Source: Bacteroidales bacterium
GTDB lineage: Bacteria > Bacteroidota > Bacteroidia > Bacteroidales > P3
Reading direction: 5' to 3'
Assembly: GCA_017962545.1 (NCBI GenBank)
Contig: JAGCVD010000005.1
Span: forward strand, 20,403 to 84,402
DNA: 64,000 nucleotides
This document shows, piece after piece, positions 30,533 through 32,230 of the stretch; the stretch's first letter is position 1, and each line of letters starts with the position of its first letter. A program made the translations under genes and the position numbers. The notes under the pieces are model-generated. The model saw only the letters and a program-made list of their open reading frames with translations, was not told the origin of the DNA and ran no database searches.

Positions 30533-31282
30533 CTACAACGACACACCGCCGTCGACACAGATGACCTGGCCGGTGATATACTCAGAGAGGTCGGAGGCCA
30601 GGAAGAGCGAGGTACGCGCAATGTCGAGGTCGGTACCACCGCGACGGAGTGGTATCTCGGCGAGCCACTTGTCGCGGGCTTCCTTGGGCATCGCCTGGGT
30701 CATCGCCGACTCGATGAGGCCGGGGGCGATGGCGTTGCAGCGGATGCCGCGTGAGCCGAGTTCCTTGGCGAGGCTCTTGGTGAAGCCCAGGATGCCGGCC
30801 TTGGAGGCCGAGTAGTTGCACTGGCCCGCGTTGCCGTTGACGCCCACCACCGACGAGGTGTTGATAATGGAGCCTGAGCGCTGCTTGAGCATCATGGGGG
30901 CGAAAGCCTTGCAGTAGTTGAACACCGAGCGCAAGTTCACCTCCAGCACGAGGTCCCAGTCCTTGGGGCTCATGCGGAGCAGCAGGCCGTCGCGGGTGAT
31001 GCCGGCGTTGTTGACGAGGGCATCAAGACGGCCGAACTCTTTCTGCACCTGCTCGGCGACGGCCATCGTCTGGTCGTAGTCGGCGGCGTTGCTGGCGATG
31101 AAGGTGCTCTTGGGGCTGACCTTCTGCAGTTCGGCGAGGAGCTCACGGCTGGCGTCGTTCTCCTGCAAATCAGTGAAAATCACGGTGGCGCCCTCTTCTG
31201 CGAAGAGCTGCGCGGTGCGGCGACCGATACCGCGGGAACCGCCAGTCACCAAAGTTATCTTGTCTTTTAAAAGCATAATCAT
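30533..31282 (-). CDS. fabG: 3-oxoacyl-ACP reductase FabG
   Basis: A 249-residue SDR enzyme reducing beta-ketoacyl-ACP with NADPH. The nucleotide motif is TGGSRGIGRRTAQLF, NNAG is at VNNAGITRDG, and the catalytic Ser, Tyr and Lys are in INTSSVVGVNGNAGQCNYSASKAG. The start is 31282 (MIMLLKDK) or 31276 (MLLKDK). A mobile-type element ends four bases before the start codon, so the native upstream control has probably been replaced. It belongs to the fabH-fabF-fabZ-fabG cluster. Confidence 0.93.
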   Translation of the reverse strand: MIMLLKDKITLVTGGSRGIGRRTAQLFAEEGATVIFTDLQENDASRELLAELQKVSPKSTFIASNAADYDQTMAVAEQVQKEFGRLDALVNNAGITRDGLLLRMSPKDWDLVLEVNLRSVFNYCKAFAPMMLKQRSGSIINTSSVVGVNGNAGQCNYSASKAGILGFTKSLAKELGSRGIRCNAIAPGLIESAMTQAMPKEARDKWLAEIPLRRGGTDLDIARTSLFLASDLSEYITGQVICVDGGVSL

Positions 31283-31299
31283 TAAGGCCTCACCCCCAC

Positions 31300-31322
31300 C
31301 CCCTCTCCTAGGAGGAGAGGGG
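31300..31322. repeat. Left palindrome of the DUF559 element
   Basis: Ten-base stem CCCCTCTCCT/AGGAGAGGGG with loop AGG. Confidence 0.85.
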
Positions 31323-31340
31323 TGTTGGTAGAGGACTTTT

Positions 31341-31721
31341 TTAATCGTTATACAATTGTTTTACTATTTTCTCAATCACTTTGTTCAAGTCAAACAAAAC
31401 TTCTTCATTGCTGAATCTTATGACTCTGTATCCCCAGTTATTCAGGTTTGCTGTACGAACCTCATCATCGTCCTGCTGTCTCGGCTCACTATGATACCCC
31501 CCGTCAACTTCAATGACCAATCGTTTGGGGAGACAAATAAAGTCCACAATATAATCACCTATTGGGTGTTGTCTGCGGAACCTAATACCAGACAATTTGT
31601 CACGCAAGGCATTCCATAAAACACGCTCTGCCTCTGTCATGTTTTTACGGTTCTCTTTTGCATAATCTTTCAAAAGGCCGTATCTGTCAGGATATGTTGT
31701 TTTGTTGAGGAATCCAGCCAT
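31341..31721 (-). CDS. DUF559 Vsr-like endonuclease domain protein
   Basis: A 126-residue protein of the DUF559 family, a PD-(D/E)XK fold close to very-short-patch repair nucleases. It shows ARENRKNMTEAERVLW-like start (YAKENRKNMTEAERVLWNAL), FRRQHPIGDYIVDFICLPKRLVIEVDGG with the conserved D and E-x-D residues, and YRVIRFSNEEVL near the end. Biochemical function is unknown. The gene is alone between inverted ends and is lower in GC than its neighbours, with many AAA and TTT codons, which fits acquisition. Confidence 0.88.
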   Translation of the reverse strand: MAGFLNKTTYPDRYGLLKDYAKENRKNMTEAERVLWNALRDKLSGIRFRRQHPIGDYIVDFICLPKRLVIEVDGGYHSEPRQQDDDEVRTANLNNWGYRVIRFSNEEVLFDLNKVIEKIVKQLYND

Positions 31722-31733
31722 GGTTTCGTGCCC

Positions 31734-31756
31734 CCCCTCTCCTATCAGGAGAGGGG
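31734..31756. repeat. Right palindrome of the DUF559 element
   Basis: Ten-base stem CCCCTCTCCT/AGGAGAGGGG with loop ATC, identical in stem to the left copy. Confidence 0.85.
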
Positions 31757-31768
31757 CTGGGGGTGAGG

Positions 31769-32194
31769 CTATTTATTATCAATCAGCGCAAACGTGAGGT
31801 CACCCTGACAGCAGGGCTTGCCGTCGACGCTGGCTTTGGCTTCCACGAAAAATATCATCCCGCGGCGGCTGGTGATATGGGCGTGCACCTCGATCGTGTC
31901 GCCGGGACGCACAGGCTGGCGGAAGCGCACATTGTTGATACCGCTGTAGAGCGGCGTGCGGCCCACCAGTTCGTCGCGCACCAAGATGCAGCTCGACTGA
32001 GCCATAATCTCGCACTGGATGACGCCGGGCACCACGGGGTTGCCGGGGAAGTGGCCCTGCAGGAAAAACTCGTCGCCACGCACATGGTAGTGGGCGATAG
32101 CCTCATCGCCTTCCATCACCACATCGTCGATGAGTAGCATCGGCTCACGATGCGGCAGGAAGGTTTTTATGTCGTCTCTGTTCAATACGTTCAT
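31769..32194 (-). CDS. fabZ: 3-hydroxyacyl-ACP dehydratase FabZ-like
   Basis: A 141-residue hot-dog fold dehydratase. It starts MNVLNRDDIKTFLPHREPML and has the active-site helix QGHFPGNPVVPGVIQCEIMAQ divided as H48 and E62. It dehydrates 3-hydroxyacyl-ACP in fatty-acid elongation. In most Bacteroidota the main FabZ is fused to LpxC, so this stand-alone copy belongs to a separate fab cluster. The stop codon TAG overlaps the edge of the DUF559 element. Confidence 0.88.
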   Translation of the reverse strand: MNVLNRDDIKTFLPHREPMLLIDDVVMEGDEAIAHYHVRGDEFFLQGHFPGNPVVPGVIQCEIMAQSSCILVRDELVGRTPLYSGINNVRFRQPVRPGDTIEVHAHITSRRGMIFFVEAKASVDGKPCCQGDLTFALIDNK

Positions 32195-32198
32195 ATTT

Positions 32199-32230
32199 CT
32201 CTAAACTTTAAACTCTAAACTTTAAACTTT
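32199..32230. repeat. CTAAACTTTAAA tandem repeat between fabZ and fabF
   Basis: Alternating CTCTAAA and CTTTAAA units fill the fabZ-fabF gap and run into the last codon of fabF. Confidence 0.55.

Follow-up and report, generated by a model that had tools for sequence, protein, structure and literature searches.

A DUF559 nuclease gene between REP-like hairpin ends: a candidate homing-like mobile element in Bacteroidota

Introduction

What is a gene for a DUF559 nuclease, enclosed by palindromic ends, doing exactly at the junction of fabZ and fabG? The question arises from a stretch of 64,000 nucleotides of a Bacteroidales bacterium (assembly GCA_017962545.1, contig JAGCVD010000005.1, positions 20,403 to 84,402), hereafter the window, in which the fab cluster is interrupted by such an insert. 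Here, we trace the insert, its enzyme and its end units through the genus, through named genomes of the phylum and through plasmids, and arrive at the view that what spreads these repeats may be an enzyme that cuts DNA and not a conventional transposase.

Structure and genomic position of the element

The insert is 483 bp long (31287–31769), with a sole gene flanked by inverted hairpin ends (Table 1). Its arms (31287–31322 and 31734–31769) are 36-nt inverted repeats, 89% complementary and with 411 nt between them, and each consists of the hairpin CCCCTCTCCT-nnn-AGGAGAGGGG and, on its outer side, two free bases and then GGGGGTGAGGC. The hairpin-plus-tail units bounding the element measure about 45 nt, and both face outward. 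A preliminary description of this DNA had rightly seen the ends as inverted hairpin repeats but understated them at about 23 bases with one difference. The local inverted-repeat score of the element is 27, where 1000 dinucleotide shuffles reach 13 at most, and among 410 evenly spaced positions of the window this score recurs only where the position overlaps the element, the next being 12.5. The coordinates also agree with the exact placement between fabZ and fabG, and with the last base of the fabZ stop codon coming from the element, both of which had been proposed: the G of TAG lies at 31769, where the element ends. Immediately upstream of fabZ (32195–32230), the window additionally displays short A/T-rich direct repeats (CTTTAAACT).

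Table 1. Features of the fabZ–fabG junction in the window
Feature	Coordinates	Strand	Evidence or remark
Whole element, 483 bp	31287..31769	-	Between fabZ and fabG; inverted-repeat ends; no insert at the junction in 25 of the 30 closest relatives
Left end: tail GCCTCACCCCC plus hairpin CCCCTCTCCT-AGG-AGGAGAGGGG, tail outward	31287..31322	-	Sequence and inverted repeat; 28 places in the genome at up to 2 mismatches
DUF559 gene, 126 aa, conserved E71, D73, H77, D86	31341..31721	-	Pfam PF04480, E 5.4e-38; 45-row alignment; 3r3p, E 1e-7
Right end: hairpin CCCCTCTCCT-ATC-AGGAGAGGGG plus tail GGGGGTGAGGC, tail outward	31734..31769	+	Sequence and inverted repeat
fabZ	31769..32194	-	Last stop base supplied by the element
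fabG, gene after the insert	30533..31282	-	Begins 4 bases past the other end of the element

The enzyme is related to a homing endonuclease

The one gene inside is, as had been claimed, a DUF559 gene: its 126-aa product matches PF04480 with 129.7 bits (cut-off 20.6; E 5.4e-38). Across a 45-row alignment, E71, D73, H77 and D86 are invariant, with 3r3p having N and W at two of these positions. Searched against solved structures, the profile retrieves 3hrl, described as endonuclease-like (E 1.6e-29), and 3r3p, described as a ‘mobile intron protein’ (E 1e-7), which we take to be I-Bth0305I. The best PADLOC model is ‘homing endonuclease’ (E 5e-8); weak PADLOC matches to two further nuclease-type models, DpdF and mREase_II, count against our preferred reading, and PHROGs and NCBIfam returned weak or sub-cut-off matches. 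Judged by its sequence, DUF559 is related to a homing endonuclease, and the classification in PMC9403480 files it under the EDxHD homing endonucleases.

Insertion and turnover beside fabZ

Among the 30 closest fabZ loci of the genus, fabG follows fabZ without interruption in 25, as judged from a FabG motif no more than 130 nt away in 24 of them and from inspection of the sequence in G100; four carry such an end after fabZ (G000, which is the window’s genome, G037, G065 and G108) and one has another gene, bearing out the expectation, set beforehand as a test, that the element would be absent from most relatives. More widely, fabZ is matched in 104 of 119 genus genomes, and DUF559 lies within a few hundred bases of it in nine: on the fabG side in G000, G037, G108, G065, G094 and G013, and on the other side in G110, G083 and G068. 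Another complete element is present at a different place in G083 (L104), where units at 1951 and 2440 enclose the gene. At the same place, G108 and G037 have FabZ proteins that are 96% identical and DUF559 proteins that are 56% identical; for G068 and G094, which carry the gene on opposite sides of fabZ, the values are 99% and 62%, and the closest pair of DUF559 proteins on different sides (G110 and G037) shares 73% (FabZ 88%). Such discordant identities argue against a common history of the two genes and, as far as sequence comparison goes, point to repeated arrival of DUF559 elements beside fabZ.

One alternative is that DUF559 is a host repair or defense nuclease lying amid common terminator hairpins, with nothing mobile at present. 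It draws on the Caulobacter DUF559 protein VsrA, which is tied in PMC12907096 to DNA damage in cells without a cytosine methylase, on the adjacency of DUF559 and fabZ in the nine genus genomes, and on the RecG copies (see below), where one place in five of five loci with similar nucleases is as expected from inheritance. The empty fabZ–fabG sites and the very different DUF559 genes beside fabZ in close relatives contradict it, as do observations on ends and reading frames given below, and we hold it to be unlikely.

With the empty sites aligned, no target-site duplication could be fixed, the flanks being too diverged, nor could a target consensus, which counts against our explanation; judged by eye, some empty relatives share the bordering GC, but on just one side. 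We also considered fabZ as a general target and rejected it: by motif, FabZ is near only one (L213) of 80 loci in named genomes, the best 80 of 549. In G108 (L139), the FabZ frame reads on into the element, which adds PHPQPLS to its end. At the fabZ–fabG junction of G110 (L137), there is a different small open frame beginning MTNSFKEVVAWQ, free of such ends, which resembles four-helix-bundle proteins. Inserts of several kinds may be tolerated here.

End units form a dispersed repeat family in the genus

The pattern GGAGAGGGGNNGGGGGTGAGG, allowing up to two mismatches, occurs at 28 places in the window’s genome, against seven for the reversed-pattern control. At least one unit is present in 51 of 119 genus genomes, and nine of the 119 have at least 12 (14 to 71). 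The latter abundance is seen in 9 of the 12 genomes with a DUF559 match at E<1e-31 versus none of the 107 others (Fisher 2e-11; Mann–Whitney 7e-7). The exceptions, which weigh against our explanation, are three genomes with strong DUF559 matches and few units (G065 and G014 with one each, G084 with none) and G079, which has 11 units and no DUF559 match. Over half of the 28 units in the window’s genome stand in gene-less outward pairs, at least eight of which exist besides the element, and inspection by eye reveals a decayed partner for some units that seem single. Across six genomes, neighboring units within 200 bp face outward in 45 of 51 pairs, picked by hand among the matches listed, and span 87–195 bp (median 118). 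The element is thus a pair of this type that encloses a gene. Around 30 DUF559 loci retrieved from the genus, ends or tails are found on both sides in 9 of 12 strong matches and in none of 18 weaker ones. A second DUF559 subfamily in the genus (L014, L015, L017, L019–L022) features an FPPY motif before the domain and has none of the hairpins searched for.

The two arms of one pair are no more alike than arms taken across pairs (24 pairs; permutation p 0.26), a point against our explanation; a single donor for both arms of a pair, an idea that looks partly true in G083, fails over the 24 pairs. An Rfam search gave no match above the gathering score.

The resemblance of the outward pairs to REPINs raises the alternative that a Y1/HUH transposase of the RAYT or IS200 type moves the hairpins, with DUF559 a passenger caught between two of them. 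The terminal repeats of some Y1 ‘TIRYT’ genes, as described in PMC3733652, share the motif GGGGWSAS, which fits the tail GGGGTGAG; a Y1 match is present in 73 of 120 genus genomes, and a GGGGWSAS-like motif or its complement lies somewhere in 9 of the 22 Y1 loci inspected. However, Y1_Tnp (PF01797) has no match in the window’s genome (assembly 81% complete) or in G009 with its 43 copies, the presence of Y1 shows no association with unit copy number (p 0.66 and 0.48), and none of the 22 Y1 loci, 20 of which come from REP- or DUF559-bearing genomes, has a CTCTCC/GGAGAG hairpin. Sought in the 120 genus genomes and beside the ends, a RAYT/Y1 mover was rejected as not associated with the units, and we consider this alternative quite unlikely.

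Flanked DUF559 genes across Bacteroidota and on plasmids

In named genomes, we scanned the best 80, by score, of 549 Bacteroidota DUF559 loci. Among these 80, 65 of the 79 scorable loci have a flanking inverted repeat above the 99th percentile (13.0) of the controls, which comprised 287 shifted windows with a mean of 8.9 and one control at 27; this last control counts against our explanation. This was the other test set beforehand, and the ends are indeed paired around other DUF559 genes. The repeats differ by locus (e.g., CCTCACCCC..CCCTCTCC; GACTCTCCCCC..CCTCCCT; AGCCCCCTAACCCCCT), and both arms within a locus agree; such a locus-specific variant common to both ends is a further point against a host nuclease amid terminators. 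The pattern GGAGAGGGGNNGGGGGTGAGG itself is matched in 65 of 296 genomes of the phylum (49 of 140 genera), with some hits at two mismatches and with the reversed control also hitting a few genomes.

The end type follows the resident element. We counted two types, P and T, which we assigned from the inverted repeats of the loci, in 23 genomes. Those entered as P-type have more P than T units in seven of seven cases (P/T 13/1, 20/9, 48/0, 40/28, 148/29, 12/0 and 9/0), and those entered as T-type have more T than P in 8 of 11 (e.g., 0/28, 2/70, 0/42 and 3/63), with the single genome of both types holding both (16/19). Three T-type genomes with more P units (G418, 64/3; G421, 40/11; G422, 22/12) go against our explanation, and so does G431, with 12 T units, among the four genomes of other types (0/0, 1/12, 0/0 and 0/4). 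G423 has a third-type locus as well, and the element ends of G009 merely resemble type T.

DUF559 relatives occur in 51 plasmid records, from which 22 loci were fetched. The inverted-repeat score is at least 3 above all of the locus’s own controls, at most three per locus, in 14 of the 22, and the flanked loci belong to Cyanobacteria, Deinococcota and Alphaproteobacteria. A flanked gene is carried, for instance, by plasmid pAQ6 of Picosynechococcus PCC 7002 (L337). The remaining eight have no inverted repeat above the controls, which counts against the best explanation; among them, by eye, several have a similar one-sided hairpin and L339 has one on both sides. Three Deinococcus plasmids (L319, L326 and L342) display flanked DUF559 genes at differing spots of one hpa (4-hydroxyphenylacetate) cluster. 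In phages, there are three weak DUF559 records and no more.

Nested genes and in-frame pairs inside coding sequences

Among the 80 best-scoring of 549 named loci, 32 have DUF559 within an open frame of at least 220 aa. Pfam identifies a host enzyme in all eight named frames scanned (two IleRS, LeuRS, mutase/MeaB, MetH, ValRS, GH31 and RecG) and in all three genus frames (epimerase, DegT and GHMP kinase); further nested frames were read by eye, and a Flavobacterium LeuRS is among the host enzymes. No intein (Hint) family was detected by Pfam in 11 nested ORFs (three at E≤0.001, eight at E≤0.01). Certain places recur: directly before TTRPDTIFG in LeuRS (four of six), before TTRPETI in ValRS (three of three), before the TATPIPR stretch in RecG (five of five) and, for guanylate kinase, upstream of the start motif in five loci, in frame in at least three of them (L244, L265 and L273). 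The identities of nuclease versus host protein are 56–66% versus 58–70% for LeuRS, 67–73% versus 80–90% for ValRS, 54–71% versus 66–80% for guanylate kinase and 65–79% versus 83–88% for RecG. Since such identities cannot separate repeated arrival from inheritance, we set these four recurring places aside as proof of homing.

Gene-less pairs likewise occur inside genes, and in-frame read-through is seen in 10 of 24 pairs, against 6.2 expected with shuffled inserts; we claim frame keeping as no more than survival bias. Eight of these ten pairs, chosen for flanks resembling conserved genes, were aligned with relatives, and the frame is kept in all eight. The genes, named from motifs by eye, are RibD, a CCA-adding/HD protein, NqrA, MutS2, TsaD, a transglutaminase-like protein, an O-antigen-ligase-like protein and UvrD. 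Relatives without the units exist for all eight, some with other linkers or inserts there (TsaD, NqrA and UvrD), and, translated, the units give peptides such as SPTPLLGGEG and HSPLLSGEGLGVR. In-frame copies inside enzymes are not terminators, contrary to the role that the host-nuclease alternative assigns to the hairpins. The residues that separate the two units in MutS2, NEVVPFDLTL, are the native sequence found in relatives; WKAISF of the transglutaminase-like protein and DGN of the CCA protein hint more weakly at a native inner stretch, and none is evident in the others. A pair can thus bracket native DNA, which insertion as a single piece fails to explain and which runs against our best explanation.

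The least likely alternative is that the hairpins multiply by themselves, through replication slippage or template switching at palindromes, with the nuclease controlling or exploiting rather than moving them: local copying could yield the MutS2 pair around native sequence, and identical 23-nt hairpins occupy both arms in four of eight pairs of G083, but similarity within a pair does not generally exceed that between other arms, and the gene itself is found, with such ends around it, at many unrelated sites.

Other pairs were noticed by eye in signal-peptide-like starts (L094, 1007–1154 and 2084–2218, in G083; L112, 1093–1225 and 2155–2290, in G068), where the inner stretch resembles a signal-peptide start and the right unit stands directly before the AQ cleavage region (IHSPLLQGEGLGVRL).

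A probable homing-like element with REP-like ends

The insert in the window is probably a compact mobile element, with its DUF559 nuclease the matched enzyme of the genome-wide hairpin units and with cut-and-repair of a homing-like kind as its mode of spread. A homing-nuclease-like element with REP-like ends is the best reading, in which the enzyme that we observe in association with the repeats would also cut DNA and move the element. We propose that the nuclease recognizes the tail or hairpin, or a target, and would break or nick the DNA at the ends or at preferred targets; the host, in repairing the break, might then copy in the element or a hairpin unit, and the in-frame, splice-free insertions would be the survivors inside genes. 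Cut-and-repair is favored over RAYT chemistry because of the relationship to a homing endonuclease; repeated arrival at fabZ fits homing, and the dispersed pairs fit a REPIN-like action in trans. The idea of a compact element tied to a DUF559 endonuclease, as suggested in the preliminary description, gains support at the sequence level from the empty sites and from the paired ends at other DUF559 loci. The accompanying REP-like idea is strengthened by the dispersed gene-less pairs, by the co-occurrence of the units with DUF559, though not with Y1, and by the in-frame insertions. More tentatively, there could be a widespread new class in which an EDxHD-type nuclease copies itself and, in trans, gene-less end pairs, including splice-free in-frame insertions into essential enzymes; many of the C/G-rich palindromes scattered through bacterial genomes would possibly belong to it, and pairs would also be placed around native DNA.

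Comparison with known systems

The system is akin to REP/REPIN–RAYT in its short palindromic units, outward pairs, gene-less copies and genome-specific unit types, and it repeats the defining arrangement of a REPtron, in which a unit scattered over the genome (28 places here, 7 for the reversed control) also stands on either side of the enzyme gene. RAYTs have a Y1/HUH transposase, whereas here there is a Vsr-like nuclease and no PF01797 match in its own genome. A GTAG at one end of the REP unit is the rule for RAYTs according to PMC3733652, in contrast to the units here, which end in a GGGGGTGAGGC-like tail. Moreover, unlike in REP/REPIN, a number of units are in frame inside genes and at least one pair brackets native sequence.

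With the EDxHD homing endonucleases such as I-Bth0305I, the enzyme shares sequence (3r3p, E 1e-7) and the occupation of the same places in conserved genes across several genera; the DUF559 set itself conserves E, D, H and D, with N and W in 3r3p at two of these places. It departs from them in that no intein surrounds the nested copies scanned and gene-less copies accompany the gene; to our knowledge, hairpin ends with gene-less copies are no recognized feature of that family. The family has, as described in PMC3943268, a long DNA-binding extension, which the DUF559 protein of about 126 aa lacks.

Rickettsia palindromic elements, as portrayed in PMC10969869, are palindromes of about 150 bp in frame in unrelated protein genes; the units here resemble them in lying in frame inside unrelated genes (eight conserved genes), and differ in that the passages of that source on these elements name no enzyme, whereas here a candidate enzyme is present in the full-length copy. 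MITEs and the TIRYT elements of PMC3733652 are alike in their inverted ends, non-autonomous copies and the motif GGGGWSAS; unlike in TIRYT elements, there is no Y1 match in the window’s genome and no target-site duplication that could be fixed.

A literature search for a link between DUF559 and repeats, with most subscription journals outside its reach, found no report. The system is RAYT/REPIN-like without Y1 and GTAG and EDxHD-like without an intein, and we found no report joining these features. If our reading holds, a function would be assigned to a DUF family, and an enzyme-linked case would be at hand of palindromes rewriting proteins in frame. The REP-like CGTC repeats apparently have no dedicated transposase, according to PMC3733652, and if a non-HUH nuclease is the matched partner of a repeat family, such a nuclease could be the engine for some of these orphan REP-like palindromes.
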